A DNA stretch of 33,680 nucleotides from Coriobacteriales bacterium (GTDB lineage Bacteria; Actinomycetota; Coriobacteriia; Coriobacteriales; Atopobiaceae), in NCBI GenBank assembly GCA_030529665.1, contig JAUMWL010000012.1, forward strand, positions 1-33,680, read 5' to 3'. Below the pieces are notes generated by a model that saw nothing but the letters and a program-made list of their open reading frames with translations, was not told where the DNA came from and searched no databases. The position numbers and the translations under genes are program-made. This document shows positions 5,133-23,776 of this stretch, piece after piece (position 1 is the first letter of the stretch; every line of letters starts with the position of its first letter).

Positions 5133-5284
5133 CTTTGTTTGGATAAAACCCACGAAATACGCCGCAGACCCATTACCACAAGAAGCTCGCGCACAAAGAT
5201 GTCACAAAGATGCCAACGAGTTTGCTTTTTATGAGTCGCATATACCAAAAGTTATGAGAAACTGGAAGTGCGGAGGTGACAGTC

Positions 5285-7444
5285 ATGAAGAAACACCGGT
5301 TCAGCGACGCAGAGCTCTTGGTTATGGAGCGCTCCTGCATCCCCTTTGCCATATGCCAGCTCGTAGACAACCGCGTGGTTGTGCTGGTCGTCTCGGACGG
5401 CCTTTGCGAGCTGTTTGGTCTTGATCGCAAAGAGGCGGAAAGTCTCATGGATCGCGACAGAAGCAAAAACACGCATCCCGACGACGTGGCGCGCATTTCT
5501 GAAGCCATCCTCCGCTTTGTCTTTCACGACGAGCCCTATGACGTCGTCTATCGCATTCGGATCGACGGAAAGTACCGCATCATCCACGCGCACGGAAAGC
5601 ACACCCTCACCAACACAGGCGACAGAATCGCCACCATATGGTACACCGACGAAGGTCCGTACCTGTCATCCACAGGCGAAGGCGAGTACAAGCTCAACGA
5701 GTCCCTAAGCAGGGCGCTGCACGAGGAGAGCCTTTATCAGCAAAGCAACTACGATCACCTTACGGGCCTGCCTCGCATGACGTATTTCTTTGAGCTCGCG
5801 GAGGACGGCCGGATTCGGCTCCTTGCAGAGGGCAAGAGCCCGGCCCTGTTGTTCTTTAACCTCAGCGGCATGAAGTTCTTCAACAAGAAGCACGGCTTTG
5901 CGGAAGGCGACAAGCTCATCTACTCCGTTGCCCGAGTTCTTGCATCGCACTTTGGCCTCGAGTGCTGCAGCCGCCTGGGACAAGACCATTTTGCCGTCTA
6001 CACCGACGTCGCAGGCGTGGAAGACAAGCTCCGGCGGATCTTTGCCGAGTGCCGGGACATCAACGATGGCAAGAGCCTGCCCATACACGTGGGCATCTAC
6101 CTCAACAGCACCCAGACCATCGACGTTGGCACCGCGTGTGACCGTGCCAAGTACGCCTGCAACCTCAATCCCGAAGCGTTTGTATCGAGCTATCGTTACT
6201 TTGACAGCAAGATGCTCGCTCAGACCGAGCTGCAGCAATACATTGTTGATCATCTGGACCAGGCCATCAAGGAGGGCTGGATTCAGGTGTACTACCAGGC
6301 CATCGTGCGCGCCGCAAACAGCCGCGTGAGCGACGAGGAGGCGCTCGCCCGCTGGGTCGATCCCGAGCTCGGCCTGCTCTCCCCCGCCGACTTTATCCCT
6401 ATCCTCGAAAGCGCCAAGCTCATCTACAAGCTTGACCTGCACGTACTTGACCAGGTCTTGCAAAAGATGAAGCGTCAGGCCGATGCCGAGCTCTATGTGG
6501 TACCACAATCGATCAACCTCTCCCGTACCGACTTTGACCAAGAGGGCTTTGTGGACGAGGTATGTCGACGCGTGGACGCCATGGGAATCGACCGCGGCAA
6601 GCTCACCATCGAGATTACCGAGAGCGTGGTGGGAAGCGACTTCATCTTTATGAAAGAGCAGATCGAGCGCTTTTGCAATATGGGGTTTAAGGTATGGATG
6701 GACGACTTTGGAAGCGGATATTCCTCGCTCGACGTTCTCCAAAACATCCGCTTTAACCTTATTAAGCTCGACATGCGCTTTTTGCAGCGTTTTGAGAAGG
6801 GCGGCGAAAGCAAGATCATCCTTACCGAGCTCGTGCGCATGGCGATGGGCCTTGGTATAGACACCGTGGCGGAGGGCGTGGAGACGCAGGAGCAGGTTGA
6901 CTTCCTGCGCGAGATTGGTTGCAGCAAGCTGCAGGGATACTACTTCACCAAGCCGGTTCCCATGGATACGATCATCGAACGCAAGCGCAAAGGCACCCTC
7001 ATTGGGTTTGAGAACCCGGACGAGGCAGACTATTATGCGACGATCGGCCGCATCAACCTCTATGACTCCGCCGCGATACGGAACAAGGACTATCGCACCT
7101 ATCGTCGCTACTTCGACGCGATCCCCATGGCCATCCTTGAGTCAGACGGACAGCAACTGCATGTGGCCCGTTCCAACACGACCTACCGCGAGTACATGGA
7201 GCGCGTCTTTGGCGTAATCATCGAGGGACACGACGTTCGTCTGCCCGAGCGCGAGGGACGCGCGGTCTCGCTGTTCATCGACGCCGTGTTCCAATGCGGC
7301 AAGGACGGCAAGCCCGCCGCCCTGGACGAAGAGACCGGCAAAGGCGAGGTGAGTCACGCCCTCATCAACCGAGTTGCGGTGAACCCCGTAACGGGTACGG
7401 CAGCAATACTCGTGGCCGTCTTTGCGGTGATCCACCAGGCGTGA
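5285..7444 (+). CDS. PAS-GGDEF(degenerate)-EAL c-di-GMP phosphodiesterase
   Basis: 719 residues. A PAS-like domain (about 20-107) is followed by a GGDEF-fold domain (about 150-280), an EAL domain (about 315-555) and a further PAS-like tail (about 600-715). The GGDEF signature is GQDHF, and the metal-binding Asp of the first motif is replaced (FNLSGMKFFN), so cyclase activity is unlikely. The EAL domain keeps EALARW, the Asn in SINLS, EITES, DDFGSGYSS, the Lys in LIKLDM, AEGVET and LQGYYFTKP, so it should hydrolyse c-di-GMP. There is no membrane segment, so it is cytoplasmic. The ATG at 5285 is chosen because CGGAGG (5271-5276) lies 8 bases upstream; a GTG at 5276 is too close to it. A terminator follows directly. 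Confidence 0.9.
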   Translation: MKKHRFSDAELLVMERSCIPFAICQLVDNRVVVLVVSDGLCELFGLDRKEAESLMDRDRSKNTHPDDVARISEAILRFVFHDEPYDVVYRIRIDGKYRIIHAHGKHTLTNTGDRIATIWYTDEGPYLSSTGEGEYKLNESLSRALHEESLYQQSNYDHLTGLPRMTYFFELAEDGRIRLLAEGKSPALLFFNLSGMKFFNKKHGFAEGDKLIYSVARVLASHFGLECCSRLGQDHFAVYTDVAGVEDKLRRIFAECRDINDGKSLPIHVGIYLNSTQTIDVGTACDRAKYACNLNPEAFVSSYRYFDSKMLAQTELQQYIVDHLDQAIKEGWIQVYYQAIVRAANSRVSDEEALARWVDPELGLLSPADFIPILESAKLIYKLDLHVLDQVLQKMKRQADAELYVVPQSINLSRTDFDQEGFVDEVCRRVDAMGIDRGKLTIEITESVVGSDFIFMKEQIERFCNMGFKVWMDDFGSGYSSLDVLQNIRFNLIKLDMRFLQRFEKGGESKIILTELVRMAMGLGIDTVAEGVETQEQVDFLREIGCSKLQGYYFTKPVPMDTIIERKRKGTLIGFENPDEADYYATIGRINLYDSAAIRNKDYRTYRRYFDAIPMAILESDGQQLHVARSNTTYREYMERVFGVIIEGHDVRLPEREGRAVSLFIDAVFQCGKDGKPAALDEETGKGEVSHALINRVAVNPVTGTAAILVAVFAVIHQA

Positions 7445-13155: not shown

Positions 13156-14358
13156 TTACACCACCGTGATGACGTCCTCGAGCACGTAGCAGAAGGAGGG
13201 GGCGGACGCGCTCGCATTCTCTTGGTAGCCCTGGGAAAGGTCGCAGGTGTCCGAGGGCTTGCTTGGGTTAACCCCCACGTAATCGCCCTTGAAAACGTCC
13301 ACCCTGCCTCTCCTCAGCCCGTCGATGGCTGCCTCCATGGCCTCCTCGGCCCCCTCTGGAGCAGCAAGCGCGTTGAGGTCGAGCATCTGGACCCAGTCCT
13401 TGTCAAATCCAGCACCTGCATCCTTGCCGTGGATGTTGGCGCTCACGTTGTCCTCTATGTCCACGCCCTGCAACACGGCATCGGCCGCAGCGAGCACGTA
13501 GGGCGACCAGTTGATGCGCGTACACACCAACGCCATGGTGGGTGCCGACTCGGCCATGCTCTCGTTGTAGCCCACGTGGTAGACCTCGCGCGTTGCCGAC
13601 GCCTCCTCGCAGGCGAGCGCTGGGCCAATGGTGTTGGTGGATTGCGAGATCACCACGCACCCATCCTCTATAAACCGCTCCGCGCACTCCTTCTCGGCCG
13701 CGTAGCTTGACCACGAGTTCATGTAACTCACTTCCATGGTGGCAGTTGGCACCACCGAGCGCACGCCCAGCAAGAAGGCCGTGTACGCCGAGATGTTCTC
13801 GGCCGACTCAAACGCGGCTACATAGCCAACCTTTGCCGCGTTGGCGTCCACCAGCCCGCGATCGATCATCTGTTGAATCTTTAGACCGGCCACCACGCCC
13901 GACACATAGCGTCCCTCATAGATGTGCCCCATAAAGGTGTGGTAGTTGTCCAGCACCGGCTCGGTGTTGGCGTTGGTGCACGTTGCCTGGCAAAACTGCA
14001 CCTTGGGGTGCTCGGCAGCAATGCGCTTTGCGGCCTTTCCGTAGTCCCAACTGGTGGTAAAAATAAGGTCGCACTTGTTGTCCACGAGCGCAAGGATGGC
14101 TTCCTCCCCGTCCTCGTCTGCCACGTTGCTCTGAACCTCGATCTCCACACGGTCGCCGTATGCGGACTTCAGCGCTCGCTGGGCAACCATAAAGTTGTAG
14201 GTATACGGCTCGGTCTCGTCACCGTCGTACACGAAGCCCACCTTTATGCTCTCCCTGGCATGGCTCACCTGCCTAAAGGCGCTCACGCCCACCGCGCATG
14301 CCAGCACCATGCACACGCTCACGGCCATGCTCACAATGTCGGTACGCCCTAGCCTCAT
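13156..14358 (-). CDS. BMP-family (Bmp/PnrA-like) substrate-binding protein
   Basis: 400 residues. The N-terminus has a hydrophobic export segment, and VLAC at 18-21 fits a loose lipobox, so it may be lipid-anchored at C21. After it, IKVGFVYDGDETEPYTYN, CDLIFTTSWDYGKAA, YEGRYVSGVVAGL and VYHVGYNESM follow the order of the basic membrane protein family (PF02608). Characterised members bind purine nucleosides for ABC uptake. No permease or ATPase is adjacent. Instead the start codon overlaps the stop codon of the propeller/HD-GYP receptor gene (ATGA), with GGAGG inside that gene, so the two are translationally coupled. I infer a ligand-presenting partner for the receptor. The ligand is unproven. 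Confidence 0.87.
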   Translation of the reverse strand: MRLGRTDIVSMAVSVCMVLACAVGVSAFRQVSHARESIKVGFVYDGDETEPYTYNFMVAQRALKSAYGDRVEIEVQSNVADEDGEEAILALVDNKCDLIFTTSWDYGKAAKRIAAEHPKVQFCQATCTNANTEPVLDNYHTFMGHIYEGRYVSGVVAGLKIQQMIDRGLVDANAAKVGYVAAFESAENISAYTAFLLGVRSVVPTATMEVSYMNSWSSYAAEKECAERFIEDGCVVISQSTNTIGPALACEEASATREVYHVGYNESMAESAPTMALVCTRINWSPYVLAAADAVLQGVDIEDNVSANIHGKDAGAGFDKDWVQMLDLNALAAPEGAEEAMEAAIDGLRRGRVDVFKGDYVGVNPSKPSDTCDLSQGYQENASASAPSFCYVLEDVITVV

Positions 14359-17300
14359 GCGTCCTCCCCCTCCAAGCTGGTGCCGTTGAGGATGTGGTCT
14401 ATCTTGCCCTCGTCGATGAGCCGCAACATTATGGTGGCAATCTCTGGGTCAAACTGCTTGCCTTTGCCACGCTCGAGCTCGCCTAACACGTAGCCCATGT
14501 CCTGCTTCTGGCGATACACGCGGTTTTGCGTCATGGCGTCAAAGGCATCGGCCACCGCGATTATGCGTCCATACAAGGGAATCTTTTGGCCCGCAATGCC
14601 GGTTACGTATCCGCTTCCATCGTAGCGCTCGTGATGGTAAAGCGCACCCTCCACCACATGGTCGATCATGGTAAAGTCCTTGAGGATCTCGGCCCCACGC
14701 GAGACGTGCGTCTTCATGACGGCGTACTCCTCGTCCGTAAGGCGGCCCGGCTTGTTGAGGATGCGGTCGGGAATGCCAATCTTTCCAATGTCGTGCAGAA
14801 GCGCCGCCTTGCGCAGGTTCTCGCACTCGTCCTCGGTAAAGCCAAGCTCGCGCGCCAGCAAAACGGAGTACTGCGAGACGCGATGGGAGTGCTGGCTGGT
14901 GTTTCCGTCCTTGGCGTCCACCGCGCGCGCGATTGAGATGACCGTTTGGTCGGCCATCTGGATCTGGCGGTGCGCAAGGTCGAGCTCGCGCTGCTGGAGC
15001 TCCAAGCGCCTCTGCACGGTGGAACGCGCAACGTACCAGGTAAACCAGGCAATGGCAAGACCGGCCACCACAAAGACGTATGCCATGAACCATGGGTTGT
15101 CATAGATCATGGGGGCCTTGCGCAGCTGGTAGGAGCTCGTCTCCAAAACGCTTCCATCGTTTCCCAGCACGCTGAGCACAAACGTGTAGTCGCCCGACTC
15201 AATGTTGGTGTAGCTTATTACCCCCAGCTCGCTCTTGCGCACGCGCGTGGGCTTGGCGTCGTAGCCAACGAGCTGGTAGCTCACGTAGGGGTCGTCAAGC
15301 GTGTACGATATGACCTCGGGGTCTATGTCCATGCGCTGGGTGTCCTGCGCTATGGAAAAGGGCACGCCGCGCTCCAAGTGGTGCTCCACGCCGTCAAGGC
15401 TGATGGTAGGGACCTTCATGTGATACGAGCGTTTTGCCTGCGAGTAGTCATGCGTGTCGAGCCTAAAGGTCCCCTTGTCGGTACACACGTACAGCATGCC
15501 CTGCTCGTCCAGGTGATTCCACGAGTTGGCGGTAATGGACGCGCCGAGGCCAAACTTCCTGTCCAAGAGGTCCGTGCGCAGAGGGCTCACGCTGCCGATG
15601 AGGTCGGTCTCGCGCATTACGTATATGCCGGCGCTGCTGAGCACGAGCACCTCGCCATCCACCCCCGGCTGCACGTCAAAGTTGTTGAAGTAGGGAAACG
15701 CCTCCAGCGCACGCACCGTCTTGTCTGGCTCCATGTAGCAAAGGCCGTTGCTCGTCACCACATACAGGCCCTCGGCATTGACGGCCGGGGCTATGCGCAA
15801 GATGATGTTGGAGGTAAGCCCGTCACCCACCGTCTTGCGCCATGCCGGCTTGCCGTCGCGAATGGCCACGATGCCATCACCGTCGGTGCCGCAGAGCACG
15901 GTGCCGTCGTCCATGACATAGAAGGACAGCACCTGCGAGCTGCTAAAGCTAGACCCGTAGGGTATTGTTTGCAGCACCTTGCCATCGCGAATGCGCGCCA
16001 CGCACGTGTCGCCCGAGGCAACTATGGTACCGTCCTTTGCCTCCACGCACGTGCGTACGCGGTCCGAGAACGCATGGTCCTTGTCATCGAAGCTCTGCAC
16101 GCCTAGGTCAGGCGAAACGTCCAGAAGGCCCTTGCCATACGTGCACACCCACAAGTGGTCCTGTGAGTCCACGTACGTGCAGCGGACCCTGGTTCCCTCC
16201 AGCAGCGACGAGAGGTCGTTGTGCACCTCCACGCCACGCTGCAAGTCTATGATGTCGAGCCCTTCGTCGGTTCCCACGTACAGCAGATCCTGCCACATGA
16301 CGGTGGAGTTAACCACGTCGCGGGAAATCCCCGCCATCTCGTACAGGTCGCTAAACGTGGAGCGGGTCATCTTTAGCACGCCAAGACGCGACGAGGTAAA
16401 CCAGTAGTTGCCCTGATAGTCCACGATCATGCGGTCAATGGAGTTGTTGAACTCTCCCGTGTGGATGATGGTGTAGTCGCCACCGGGTACAAAGACACCC
16501 ACCCCGTTGTCCGCGCAGCCAAACATAATGCCGTCTTTGGTAAGGGTGAGGCTGTTTATCTCTTGCAGCCCCTCAAACACGAGCTTGTCCTGGACCTTAA
16601 ACGAACCGCCCGAAATGTCATACACATAGGCGACGCCCTCGGAGGTGCCCACGTACAACCTGCCCTTGTCGTCAAACAGGCAGCACGTGTACGTGCCCGT
16701 TCCCTCCTCGCCGACGAGCGACGTCCTCATCTGCACCCTGGCGTTGCTCATAACAAAGAGCTCACCGGACGAGGTCACCGCCGCCACATGGCCATCGTTG
16801 TCGGCAGACAGGCTGTGGGCGTAGTTGGCCTCCGCGATCTGCCTTACCATCTTTATGCCAGCGTTGAGCCTAAAGACCTGCAGCGCGTCGGACGTGCCCA
16901 CGTAGTAGGTGCCGTCGGAGCTACGCACGATGCCGCGCACGGAGTTGGAAGGCAGGCCGTCCTGTGTGTCTATAACGGTGCTTACCTGCTCCTCCACGCA
17001 CAGAGAGAGGCCGTTGTCGTTGGTACCGATCCACAACCTGCCCTCCTCGTCCACGTACATGCAGTTGACGTTCTTTACCGAGTCAAAGTCTCCCATGAGC
17101 CTAAACTCGCGGCCGTTGTAGCGATACAGGCCCGCATAGGTTCCAATCCACAGGATTCCGTCCTTGGTCTGGGCGATGTCGTTGGCCTCGCCACAGGGCA
17201 GCCCGTTGTCGCTGCTGTAGGTCTCCTGCACAAAGGAGTAGAAGTCGATGCCGTCCGTGGTGCCGTCTTTCGACGCCGCAAACGCCCGCGTTGGCAAGCC

Positions 17301-17951
17301 CGCCAGCAGCAAGAGAACAACGAGCAACGTCAGCACGCCAGGGGCCTTGGAGCCCAAGGCGCGGCTGGCAGTCCCGTCCCCGCCGCCACCGGACGCGTCC
17401 CTGTTGTGCCTGCCCCCCATCTTGTCCATGAGCCGCACCGCCAAGAAGAGCAGCGACAACGTGATGACCTTGTCAACAAAGTCCAGGTAGAACTGGCCAA
17501 TAAAGGAGCACAGCCACAAGGGACACCCGTAATGCGTCAGGAGGTCTATGACGCCGTCTCCCCACATGTTGTTGGTGTACCCGTTGTAAAAGAGGATGTT
17601 GAGCGGGGCTGAGAAGGCAACGGACGCCAAGGCCGCAACCGAACCCGTTGTCATGGCGCCAAAGAACGACTTGAGGTAGCCGCGTTGGGACAAGACGCCC
17701 ACGGCAAGTCCGAGCACAATCGCAGTGATCCCGTACCAAAACGATCCGTGCTGCAACAAGGTGCAGATGGTGTTGACCGCAAGGCCCGCCACCGCTCCAG
17801 GTATGGGCCCAAACAGATACGCGACGAACACGATGCCTATGGAATCAAGCCATAGCGGGAGCTGCAACCATGCCGCGAGCAATCGTCCGCCAACCGAAAC
17901 CGCCACACAAAGGGCCGTGATAGCCGCCGCCACTCTTTCTGCCTTGCCCAT
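14355..17951 (-). CDS. Membrane receptor: transporter-like domain, beta-propeller, Y_Y_Y-like domain, HD-GYP
   Basis: 1198 residues. Residues 1-175 form five or six membrane helices resembling an ECF-transporter S component (LPLWLDSIGIVFVAYLFGPI). A low-complexity linker (185-200) leads to another hydrophobic helix ending in RAFA (205-225), which would put the next part outside. Residues about 240-900 contain two-component-regulator propeller repeats (ILWIGTYAGLYRYNG, RLWIGTNDNGLSL, YYVGTSDALQVFR), then a Y_Y_Y-like sandwich, a membrane helix (FMAYVFVVAGLAIAWF), a coiled coil and a C-terminal HD-GYP domain (HDIGKIGIPDRILNKPG near 1053). HD-GYP domains degrade c-di-GMP; the metal ligands HD, H and HHE are present, but GYP reads GYV. 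Start at the ATG behind GGGAGGG; the frame continues upstream only through folE. Signal and output target unknown. Confidence 0.88.
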   Translation of the reverse strand: MGKAERVAAAITALCVAVSVGGRLLAAWLQLPLWLDSIGIVFVAYLFGPIPGAVAGLAVNTICTLLQHGSFWYGITAIVLGLAVGVLSQRGYLKSFFGAMTTGSVAALASVAFSAPLNILFYNGYTNNMWGDGVIDLLTHYGCPLWLCSFIGQFYLDFVDKVITLSLLFLAVRLMDKMGGRHNRDASGGGGDGTASRALGSKAPGVLTLLVVLLLLAGLPTRAFAASKDGTTDGIDFYSFVQETYSSDNGLPCGEANDIAQTKDGILWIGTYAGLYRYNGREFRLMGDFDSVKNVNCMYVDEEGRLWIGTNDNGLSLCVEEQVSTVIDTQDGLPSNSVRGIVRSSDGTYYVGTSDALQVFRLNAGIKMVRQIAEANYAHSLSADNDGHVAAVTSSGELFVMSNARVQMRTSLVGEEGTGTYTCCLFDDKGRLYVGTSEGVAYVYDISGGSFKVQDKLVFEGLQEINSLTLTKDGIMFGCADNGVGVFVPGGDYTIIHTGEFNNSIDRMIVDYQGNYWFTSSRLGVLKMTRSTFSDLYEMAGISRDVVNSTVMWQDLLYVGTDEGLDIIDLQRGVEVHNDLSSLLEGTRVRCTYVDSQDHLWVCTYGKGLLDVSPDLGVQSFDDKDHAFSDRVRTCVEAKDGTIVASGDTCVARIRDGKVLQTIPYGSSFSSSQVLSFYVMDDGTVLCGTDGDGIVAIRDGKPAWRKTVGDGLTSNIILRIAPAVNAEGLYVVTSNGLCYMEPDKTVRALEAFPYFNNFDVQPGVDGEVLVLSSAGIYVMRETDLIGSVSPLRTDLLDRKFGLGASITANSWNHLDEQGMLYVCTDKGTFRLDTHDYSQAKRSYHMKVPTISLDGVEHHLERGVPFSIAQDTQRMDIDPEVISYTLDDPYVSYQLVGYDAKPTRVRKSELGVISYTNIESGDYTFVLSVLGNDGSVLETSSYQLRKAPMIYDNPWFMAYVFVVAGLAIAWFTWYVARSTVQRRLELQQRELDLAHRQIQMADQTVISIARAVDAKDGNTSQHSHRVSQYSVLLARELGFTEDECENLRKAALLHDIGKIGIPDRILNKPGRLTDEEYAVMKTHVSRGAEILKDFTMIDHVVEGALYHHERYDGSGYVTGIAGQKIPLYGRIIAVADAFDAMTQNRVYRQKQDMGYVLGELERGKGKQFDPEIATIMLRLIDEGKIDHILNGTSLEGEDA

Positions 17952-21915: not shown

Positions 21916-21962
21916 CCAAGCAATGGGGATACTCCCCTTTGCTTAGTATCCCCATCGCTTGG
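21916..21962. terminator. Hairpin after the nuclease gene
   Basis: CCAAGCAATGGGGATACT (21916-21933) pairs with AGTATCCCCATCGCTTGG (21945-21962) at 17 of 18 positions with an 11-base loop. It starts right after the nuclease stop codon. There is no T run. Confidence 0.65.
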
Positions 21963-22075
21963 CCCTCGCGCGGATTTGTGCGCTCTTACGTTACCATCCG
22001 CCCAAAAAACGGAGTTATCGTACGCAAACATGCTACATTGTTTTGGTACCACCGATGCACGAAAGGACAGGCGCC

Positions 22076-23776
22076 ATGGCTGTTGTTCCGCCACGTCAGG
22101 TAGCAATTCTTAGCATTGCCAACTATTCAACAATTTGCAACGAGGTCTCGGCCCAAGCCGCGGACGAGGCCATGGAGGACCTGCGCCAAATGGCGATTGG
22201 GTGCGGGGTCGATTCTGGTTACATGCGCCTGTTTCAGAACAACACCATCTTGCTTCGGCTCGACGATCTTCCTCGCCAAGGGTTTCTTGACGCCATACAT
22301 TGTCTGGGGGCACGGGCTCGCAGCCTGGAGACGCCCGGCACCAAGCACATAAAGCCCGTCGTGCGCGTAGGCGCCATGAGCGAGCGGGCACTGCGATCGT
22401 TTGTAAACGACGCGGCGGCCGACCTCCTGTCGTACATGAACCACGTGGACTGCCCTGCCGCCTTCCTCGCCGGAGACGAGCTTGACATATGGCAGCAGTT
22501 TGAGTCGTCGGGCATTGAGCTTATGAGCCATGAGCAGCTAAAGTACATGGATCCCTTTACGGGTCTTCTTCGTCCCGAGCGATTCTTTGAGCTTCTGCAA
22601 GGTTCTATTGACGAGGACGACCAGCGCACCAAAGACATTCACGTGCTGTACTTTGACATCGACGACTTTAAGTCGTACAACCGCGCATTCTCCTACGACG
22701 CTGGTGACGAGCTGCTCATGTTCTTGGCACGGCAGATTGCCGAGGCGTTTCCCTCGGACGTGGTGTCTCACCTGTCCATAGACCGCTTTGCCGTGCTGAC
22801 CAGCGCAAGTGACATTGTGCGCAAATGCGCCATTGTCCACGAGACCGTGCGCTCCTTCAACAAGGCGTTTGCACCGGAGGTGAAGTGCGGCGCATTCAAG
22901 CTGGAGCCAGGGCTGGAATCCGCGCACCTGGCCATGGACTGCGCCAAGCTCGCCTGCGAGAGCATAAAGGGTCGATACGACATCGCCTGTCGCTTCTTTG
23001 ACGATAAGCTGCGGGAACGCATGTTTACCAGGCGCTATGTGGCGCACCATGCCGAGAAGGCCGTAAGCGAGCATTGGATTCAGGCTTTCGCTCAGCCGGT
23101 GGTATACACGCGGACCGGCGACGTGTGCGGCTTCGAGGCCCTGGCACGCTGGATCGATCCCGAGATTGGCATGCTCTCCCCCGCCGTGTTTATCCCCACG
23201 CTTGAGGAGGCGCACCTCATACACAAGCTCGACCTCTGCATCGTGGACGAGGTGTGCCAGCATCTTGCCAAACGCATGCAGGCAGGCGAGACGAGGCTGC
23301 ATGCCAGCGTCAATCTCTCGCGGCTCGACTTTGGCCTGTGCGACGCCGTTCAAGAGATATCGACCAGATGCGACAACCTAGGCATTCCACATTCCATGCT
23401 CGCCATTGAGGTAACGGAAAGCGCGCTTGACAGCGACCTCAACCTGCGCAGGGAGATGGACCGTTTTCGCACCGCGGGGTTTGAGGTGTGGATGGACGAC
23501 TTTGGCTGCGGCTACAGCTCGCTCAACCTGCTTAAGGACTACGAATTCGATGTGCTCAAGGTGGACATGGAGTTCCTGCGCGACATGGAGTCCAACAGAA
23601 GGTCAAAGACCATCGTGGCCTCGGTGATTCGCATGGCCAAGCGACTGGGGATCCGCACGCTCGTGGAGGGCGTGGAGACCAAGGAGCAGTGCGACTTCTT
23701 GCGCGAGGCTGGCTGCGACATGATGCAGGGCTACCTCTTTGGGAAGCCACGTCCCCTGGAGATTGCCGCCATATAG
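22076..23776 (+). CDS. GGDEF(degenerate)-EAL c-di-GMP phosphodiesterase
   Basis: 566 residues, cytoplasmic. The first 150 residues show no PAS pattern. The order VAILSIANYSTICNEVS then YMRLFQNNTILLRLDD looks like a highly diverged cyclase fold (inference). A GGDEF-fold domain follows at about 155-260, where the first metal site YFDIDDFKSYN is intact but the signature is SIDRF, so synthesis is unlikely. The EAL domain (about 330-560) has EALARW, ASVNLS, EVTES, DDFGCGYSS, LKVDM, VEGVET and MQGYLFGKP, all needed for c-di-GMP hydrolysis. The ATG at 22076 has GAAAGGA upstream; the longer frame runs into the previous hairpin. It is a paralogue of the gene at 5285 with different N-terminal input. 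Confidence 0.9.
   Translation: MAVVPPRQVAILSIANYSTICNEVSAQAADEAMEDLRQMAIGCGVDSGYMRLFQNNTILLRLDDLPRQGFLDAIHCLGARARSLETPGTKHIKPVVRVGAMSERALRSFVNDAAADLLSYMNHVDCPAAFLAGDELDIWQQFESSGIELMSHEQLKYMDPFTGLLRPERFFELLQGSIDEDDQRTKDIHVLYFDIDDFKSYNRAFSYDAGDELLMFLARQIAEAFPSDVVSHLSIDRFAVLTSASDIVRKCAIVHETVRSFNKAFAPEVKCGAFKLEPGLESAHLAMDCAKLACESIKGRYDIACRFFDDKLRERMFTRRYVAHHAEKAVSEHWIQAFAQPVVYTRTGDVCGFEALARWIDPEIGMLSPAVFIPTLEEAHLIHKLDLCIVDEVCQHLAKRMQAGETRLHASVNLSRLDFGLCDAVQEISTRCDNLGIPHSMLAIEVTESALDSDLNLRREMDRFRTAGFEVWMDDFGCGYSSLNLLKDYEFDVLKVDMEFLRDMESNRRSKTIVASVIRMAKRLGIRTLVEGVETKEQCDFLREAGCDMMQGYLFGKPRPLEIAAI

Follow-up and report, generated by a model that had tools for sequence, protein, structure and literature searches.

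In Vibrio cholerae, the loaded binding protein NspS docks on the periplasmic domain of MbaA and changes its phosphodiesterase activity (PMC8079147). Another group of described sensors, the 5TMR receptors, is reported to carry an extra helix H0 and cytosolic outputs such as histidine kinase, GGDEF, EAL, methyl-accepting chemotaxis protein and SpoIIE modules (Partipilo & Slotboom, 2024, PMC11109136); neither HD-GYP nor propeller occurs as a term in the text of that paper. In the present study a receptor gene (P0001) and the BMP/PnrA-type binding-protein gene directly downstream of it were analyzed in a contig of Coriobacteriales bacterium from the family Atopobiaceae (GCA_030529665.1, JAUMWL010000012.1, positions 1 to 33,680), the whole of this stretch of 33,680 nucleotides being referred to as the window. 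The receptor combines a membrane domain of the type found in energy-coupling factor (ECF) S components, an extracytoplasmic propeller sensor and an HD-GYP output.

The closest working model for this pair is NspS-MbaA, in which a substrate-binding protein (SBP) is likewise encoded beside a membrane-embedded enzyme of cyclic di-GMP (c-di-GMP) metabolism. NspS-MbaA differs in having a polyamine-binding protein instead of a BMP and a GGDEF-EAL instead of an HD-GYP output, and it is without S-component domain, propeller and internal signal-peptidase-like site. With the 5TMR receptors, as portrayed in that paper, the window receptor shares the use of the S-component fold in sensing and its fusion to a signalling output, whereas it has no modelled H0, a whole extracytoplasmic sensor inserted and a binding protein as partner. 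Double propeller and Y_Y_Y module are those of the ectodomains of the hybrid two-component system (HTCS) sensors BT4663 and BT3049, but here they are combined with HD-GYP output, S domain and BMP partner, and glycan ligands are not indicated. The nearest solved relatives of the partner BMP, by profile as well as by sequence, are AtzT and 3s99, whose stacking Tyr and Trp, Glu and Ser are retained, although the partner is membrane-anchored and the gene with which it shares an operon encodes a receptor, not an ABC transporter. Finally, the best family match of residues 11-175 is the CD3073 ECF S component, from which the window domain differs by a score far under the cut-off, by its fusion to a receptor and by the lack of an adjoining EcfT/EcfA or TudS-related gene.

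Literature searches found no publication on an S-domain/propeller/HD-GYP receptor combined with a BMP, which is weak evidence of absence, as subscription literature was thinly covered. The unit combines known kinds, namely S-component-fold receptors and SBP-coupled c-di-GMP receptors, and is not a new kind; that the gene pair is found again in gut bacteria from several phyla hints at a mode of nucleobase sensing not described so far. Our reading, to which we assign a probability of about 0.6, is that the two genes constitute one sensory unit, an SBP-coupled nucleobase receptor that controls c-di-GMP breakdown.

The receptor-BMP gene pair

The larger finding is that receptor and BMP form a conserved two-gene unit. 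The partner BMP (13156..14358, minus strand; 400 amino acids with an N-terminal membrane anchor) lies directly downstream of the receptor gene and matches PF02608 with an E value of 6e-24 and 84.9 bits against a cut-off of 24.1; its ATG overlaps the receptor stop by four bases (ATGA). Relatives were sought with peptide patterns taken from the receptor; the scan covered 84,980 species genomes and returned 59 loci. The BMP gene follows directly downstream in the window, as it does in 35 of the 36 loci L005-L040, so that a binding-protein gene adjoins a membrane c-di-GMP enzyme as in NspS-MbaA. Distances between the two genes range from -25 to +56 bases, and the value of -3, corresponding to the four-base ATGA overlap, was found in 15 of 34 listed loci. 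When 261 other open reading frames from 37 loci were clustered, nothing besides the BMP proved common across lineages, the largest neighbour clusters being ABC ATPases in nine loci and Treponema-specific neighbours in four or five.

Propeller-HD-GYP genes without S domain (S-less) served as comparison. Eight were available, four from the scan (L041, L042, L044, L045) and four from genomes of the same genus as the window genome (L106-L109), with the restrictions that L041 starts where its contig starts or ends, the sequence around L044 extends only about 2 kb in each direction and the propeller of L109 (genome G013) is split between two frames. None of the eight loci has a BMP nearby. The contrast to the receptors with S domain (S-type), of which 36/37 are accompanied by a BMP, gives a Fisher p of 4e-8, uncorrected for shared descent, and hence it is the S domain, and not propeller or HD-GYP, that predicts the BMP. 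A BMP was also absent near all seven loci L046-L052, where the output is a hybrid kinase, something else or cut off.

Six genomes that were searched whole contain ten full-length S-type receptors and ten high-scoring BMPs (at least 554 bits) in nine adjacent pairs, and four genomes of BMP-unpaired relatives hold only a BMP of 173-180 bits. In the sixth of the genomes searched whole, the Treponema assembly G167, the third receptor (L014) has no adjacent BMP, and the third BMP (L112), of the same type, stands alone on another contig behind the end of a kinase-like gene; receptor and BMP seem to have been parted here yet both kept, unless the metagenome assembly was misjoined. Patristic distances of receptors and BMPs correlate with r = 0.72 over 33 pairs, the best of 5000 permutations reaching 0.30. 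This comparison dropped L014, which lacks the adjacent BMP, L028 and L039, which are cut by contig ends, and L033, in which the 5' end of the receptor is missing. The C-terminal tail of the BMP, which had stood out in the BMP alignment, was considered as a receptor-specific docking element and rejected, since the tail of a transporter-type BMP of the window genome (contig C32) aligns with it and shares a SAP-x-F motif.

Receptor architecture

The receptor gene (14355..17951, minus strand; 1198 amino acids) starts with ATG at 17951, contains no internal stop and is preceded by a GGGAGGG stretch; the stop of a folE-type gene lies 44 bases before the ATG. Pfam and NCBIfam give the order CD3073-type ECF S component, Reg_prop repeats, weak Y_Y_Y and HD_5. 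An earlier reading of the sequence alone, hereafter the sequence-only reading, had described a chimera of membrane domain, propeller and HD-GYP in one chain, and the open frame together with the family matches confirms this single-chain architecture as real. Domain packing in the full-length model is not reliable (predicted local distance difference test, pLDDT, 79; predicted template modelling score, pTM, 0.56), and residues 180-233, the internal hydrophobic segment among them, are below pLDDT 50.

Residues 1-179 (17415..17951, minus) make up the membrane domain. Residues 11-175 match ECF_S_CD3073 with an E value of 3e-19, the 69.3 bits remaining below the curated cut-off of 180 for the CD3073 equivalog. 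An AlphaFold model of residues 1-235, built on 36 sequences, reached a mean pLDDT of 87 and a pTM of 0.80. Its best match in the Protein Data Bank (PDB) by VIA-align was ThiT (Z 15.9, root mean square deviation (rmsd) 2.9, 160 residues), followed by RibU, FolT, PanT and BioY; S components and related ECF-type transporters for transition metals occupy each of the first 20 rows, with Z between 10.2 and 15.9, and unrelated proteins, beginning with lipoprotein N-acyltransferase, were found at Z of 9.6 or lower. Foldseek alone was weak for this model (best E 0.023, probability 1.00) and querying PDB sequences with the S-domain alignment turned up a single chance match, the fold being visible only by model comparison. 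The claim that the N-terminus is S-component-like thus withstood structure comparison, and the model supports an S-component fold for residues 1-179.

The score for 5TMR-LYT (PF07694) was 19.5 bits against a cut-off of 24.6. In the model the first helix comprises residues 3-29 and is followed by the S-component core; no helix precedes it, so the H0 of 5TMR receptors is absent. AXXXA in helix 1 is the EcfT-docking motif of S components, according to PMC11109136; scored in receptor rows only, it is found in 7 of 36, including the window and L005, and absent in the other 29. Its loss as clean proof of lost transport was rejected, since the window receptor itself carries the motif. Several polar residues are near-invariant (D36 in 35/36 rows, N60 in 34/36, and N128, D160 and K161 in all 36), and D36, N60, D160 and K161 also occur in aligned stand-alone CD3073 proteins.

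The extracytoplasmic part consists of a double beta-propeller (residues 240-832; 15456..17234, minus), with Reg_prop repeats at 77 bits against a cut-off of 20, and a Y_Y_Y-type Ig-like module (residues 844-945; 15117..15422, minus), which falls just below its Pfam cut-off (24.0 against 26.6 bits) and shows strands in this range in the model. The full-length model matches the HTCS ectodomains of BT4663, with an E value of 1e-34, and of BT3049, for which the TM-score normalized to target length is 0.78 and the rmsd 4.6, so that double propeller and Y_Y_Y are both present as in HTCS sensors. The kinase output of these sensors is not: no kinase family is among the Pfam matches, and the C-terminus gives HD_5 with 134 bits. 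For a second ligand on the propeller, as proposed by the sequence-only reading, no direct evidence was found, and the BMP encoded directly downstream is the likelier second input.

A transmembrane helix with stalk (residues 953-1014; 14910..15095, minus), predicted from the model, leads to the HD-GYP domain (residues 1009-1181; 14409..14927, minus), which was recognized by Pfam, profile search and the 36-row alignment. H1021, H1053-D1054, K1057, H1082, H1106-H1107-E1108, G1114-Y1115 and D1135 are invariant in all 36 rows, and the closest solved chain is 4mcw (E 1.7e-43). The Val that replaces Pro in the GYP motif is real, but it is not special, being one of five residues in this column of the family (P13, A10, V7, M3, T3), and by the same column it was rejected as a sign of inactivity. 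Nor is an HD-GYP behind a propeller unusual in itself, given the eight S-less genes of this kind. The window genome has 44 GGDEF and four HD_5 matches and therefore likely uses c-di-GMP.

Distribution of the receptor family

S domain, propeller and HD-GYP recur in one open frame at 35 other loci (L005-L040 without L033, where the 5' end of the receptor lies off the contig; L028 holds only part of the S domain), with 44-53% identity to the window protein. The search for the same domain order advised by the sequence-only reading was thus successful, and the assembly error it had considered for the N-terminal part can be dismissed together with a chance fusion, because so many loci share this order in one frame. 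Hosts are Lachnospiraceae, Oscillospiraceae, other Clostridia, Treponema/Spirochaetales and Atopobiaceae, mostly as gut or rumen metagenome assemblies. In the tree the window protein groups with an Atopobiaceae copy among Lachnospiraceae copies, a placement that suggests transfer of the receptor between phyla. Four genomes of the same genus (G010, G013, G014, G015) have an S-less propeller-HD-GYP protein. A plasmid-borne cassette was rejected, as none of 83 matching plasmid records covers 80% of the receptor.

The internal hydrophobic segment

Between S domain and propeller, residues 199-225 (17277..17357, minus) form a hydrophobic segment, either a seventh transmembrane helix or an internal signal peptide, with an AFA/A site at residues 223-226. 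The signal-peptidase-like RAFA-AS noted in the sequence-only reading is therefore present, and such a site is conserved in 33 of 36 family members by a strict cleavage motif, which was chosen after the sequences had been inspected. Shuffled sequences gave a mean of 13.6 and a maximum of 23 rows, none of 5000 shuffles reaching 33, and in the anchor helices of the partner BMPs the strict motif occurs in 4/35. A looser motif likewise scored 33/36, with shuffled sequences averaging 25.6 rows and peaking at 33, and with matches in 18/35 BMP anchors. The strict motif was also found in 7/9 N-terminal segments of S-less or unfused relatives and in only 4/11 Bacteroidota propeller proteins, because of which it is not to be taken as a full signal-peptide predictor. 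The surrounding linker (residues 180-232) is the least conserved part of the receptor, with 13.5% identity to the window, compared with 37% for the S domain and 47% for the propeller.

The C-terminus of the fold is cytoplasmic in S components, and residues 199-225 would therefore cross outward. Lys and Arg residues, on average 4.5 before and 1.1 after the segment, fit this orientation. At L050 the S domain is a separate CD3073-like gene of 194 amino acids with an ATGA overlap to a propeller-hybrid-kinase gene that has its own signal peptide, and at L048 a separate S gene lies just upstream of such a gene. As the simplest history we infer fusion of an S gene to a signal-peptide-bearing receptor gene, the cleavage site having been kept.

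LtaS is known as a membrane protein that signal peptidase cuts internally. That the receptor chain may be cut in two, as already surmised in the sequence-only reading, is strengthened by the conserved site. Tentatively, and with more doubt than confidence, the receptor could be a polyprotein: signal peptidase I would cut the nascent chain at the internal AxA, the S subunit would stay bound to the propeller-transmembrane-HD-GYP chain, and with the tethered BMP a three-chain nucleobase receptor setting c-di-GMP would result. It could then be regarded as a vitamin transporter's relative turned to sensing and equipped with a binding protein of its own, derived by joining a separate S gene to a signal-peptide-bearing propeller gene, an arrangement still seen unfused in L050 and L048.

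Clues to the ligand

By profile search the partner BMP family is nearest to 3s99 (E 1e-42) and AtzT (E 1e-39), other BMP structures giving E values of 9e-10 or worse. AtzT retained guanine through purification and binds it with a KD of 0.11 uM, adenine with 2.5 uM and pyrimidines with 620 uM or weaker, and adenine was modelled in 3s99, both according to PMC6834077. Contacts of AtzT were mapped by hand via the alignment (numbers in the paper equal chain index + 5) onto the BMP rows (alignment A3, in which L014, L033 and L039 were left out and L043 was added). Of the stacking residues, Tyr45 corresponds to Y52 in 33/35 rows and Trp194 to W216 in 35/35; Glu165 is kept as E187 in 33/35 and Ser97 as S103 in 32/35. 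The position of Asn220 (N242) is Asp in 32 rows and Asn in three, including the window, and that of Asn218 is His in 32/35 and Ser in the window; around the latter 3s99 reads QHTD and most partner BMPs QHSD. Judged by these residues, the pocket of the partner BMP is predicted to be of purine type. The second, lower-scoring BMP of the window genome (C32) belongs to the operon of an ABC transporter and has a xanthine phosphoribosyltransferase as neighbour.

Three stand-alone CD3073 proteins of the same class scored above the cut-off (L082-L084), all of which adjoin EcfT- and EcfA-like genes; in L082 and L083 a DUF523/TudS-like gene lies beside them, the one of L083 being scored as a CD3072 TudS-related desulfidase. 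TudS enzymes are described as acting on thiouracil and 4-thio-UMP. Pocket of the BMP and TudS context of the S-domain relatives, two different kinds of evidence, let both input parts point to nucleobases as a class, and a nucleobase is the probable ligand.

Proposed mechanism and alternatives

The computations show the pairing of the genes, the folds of their products, catalytic motifs that are intact, a pocket of purine type and a cleavage motif that is conserved, whereas docking, ligand, cleavage, direction of the response and enzyme activity are inferences within the following picture. The BMP, held on the outer membrane face by its uncleaved N-terminal helix, would bind a nucleobase, that is guanine, adenine or a relative. 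Loaded or empty, it would dock on the receptor, where the propeller and the outward side of the S domain are the most likely contact sites. The S domain would itself provide another ligand site, within the membrane, which probably recognizes a compound of related chemistry. Y_Y_Y module and last transmembrane helix would relay the change to the cytoplasmic HD-GYP domain, expected to hydrolyse c-di-GMP. By analogy to NspS on MbaA, docking of the BMP on the ectodomain probably changes HD-GYP activity. Signal peptidase I may in addition cut the internal segment, so that the S domain would become a subunit of its own next to the propeller-transmembrane-HD-GYP chain. If true, gut and rumen bacteria would possess a sensory route by which extracellular nucleobases act on c-di-GMP breakdown, and the BMP partner would make its ligand directly testable. 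The idea of S-component 'transceptors' would then also cover receptors that have an extracytoplasmic sensor and a binding protein as partner, and the conserved internal site would mark an unusual receptor whose subunits arise as one chain and separate afterwards.

Several points weigh against this reading. The scan favours close relatives, because its peptide patterns came from the window protein. As the S-type receptors form one clade, the link of S domain and BMP as well as the correlation of the trees are partly confounded by descent, and of 16 strong splits among the receptors three are contradicted by strong splits among the BMPs. Within its genus the pair is rare, none of 15 same-genus genomes searched containing a full-length S-type receptor. 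The Ser at the Asn218 position means that the specificity of the window BMP may differ from that of AtzT and 3s99. The two ligand hints converge no further than on nucleobases in general, since TudS concerns thiopyrimidines and the pocket looks purine-type.

Other explanations share parts of this evidence. The pocket of the BMP is the best conserved ligand site found, and a transport role was probably lost in most members, AXXXA being kept in only 7/36 receptors; the BMP might thus be the sole ligand sensor, with the S domain as a ligand-free structural or dimerisation module and propeller and HD-GYP working as in other SBP-coupled receptors. We regard this as unlikely, for the S domain keeps near-invariant polar residues, several of them shared with stand-alone CD3073 proteins, and the pairing with a BMP tracks the S domain and not propeller or HD-GYP. 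The opposite view of the S domain, that it still works with EcfT/EcfA and imports and reports the same compound, could draw on the helix-1 AXXXA of the window copy and L005 and on two EcfT/CbiQ-family proteins encoded in the window genome. With AXXXA missing in 29/36 rows and no Ecf gene among the conserved neighbours, it appears highly improbable.

The ectodomain in turn invites the assumption that the propeller senses a sugar or polysaccharide as in HTCS receptors and that the BMP merely shares the operon for an unrelated uptake task: it matches the Bacteroides sensors BT3049 and BT4663, gut or rumen bacteria are frequent among the hosts of the family, and beta-glucosidase-like and cellulase-like genes are found elsewhere in the window. 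However, no conserved carbohydrate gene adjoins the pair, ABC transporter genes are absent beside the partner BMP in the window and do not recur through the family, and the BMP is kept in 35/36 loci, even unlinked in G167. We consider sugar sensing quite unlikely, though less so than a receptor still engaged in ECF transport, and prefer the SBP-coupled nucleobase receptor.

Further loci and neighbouring genes

A BMP close to the partner family (493 bits) was found in a genome of the same genus (L079; G006:C18, 545-1921, minus strand), in a frame with the lipobox-like LASC; it overlaps an oligopeptide-binding-protein-like gene cut by the contig end, and no S-type receptor was found in this genome. 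In the window, two GGDEF-EAL proteins flank the receptor/BMP pair (5276-7444 and 21959-23776, both plus strand), each with an EAL match of 218 bits and a weak GGDEF match of 37 and 47 bits, respectively.

With a gene of Succinivibrionaceae (Pseudomonadota), in which S domain and propeller are joined and which is cut by the contig end (L046, 3461-5663, plus strand), the fusion reaches a further phylum. A propeller protein with a weak GGDEF match below the cut-off (22.0 bits) is encoded at L051 (514-3372, plus strand), and LPXTG surface-protein-like and signal-peptidase-like genes are located downstream of it. The window genome itself encodes a second HD-GYP receptor that starts with a CD3073-like S domain (L067; contig C82, 5230-7749, minus strand; E 1e-23), has a different extracytoplasmic part without propeller and is accompanied by a GGDEF gene and a solute-binding-protein-like GGDEF-EAL gene.

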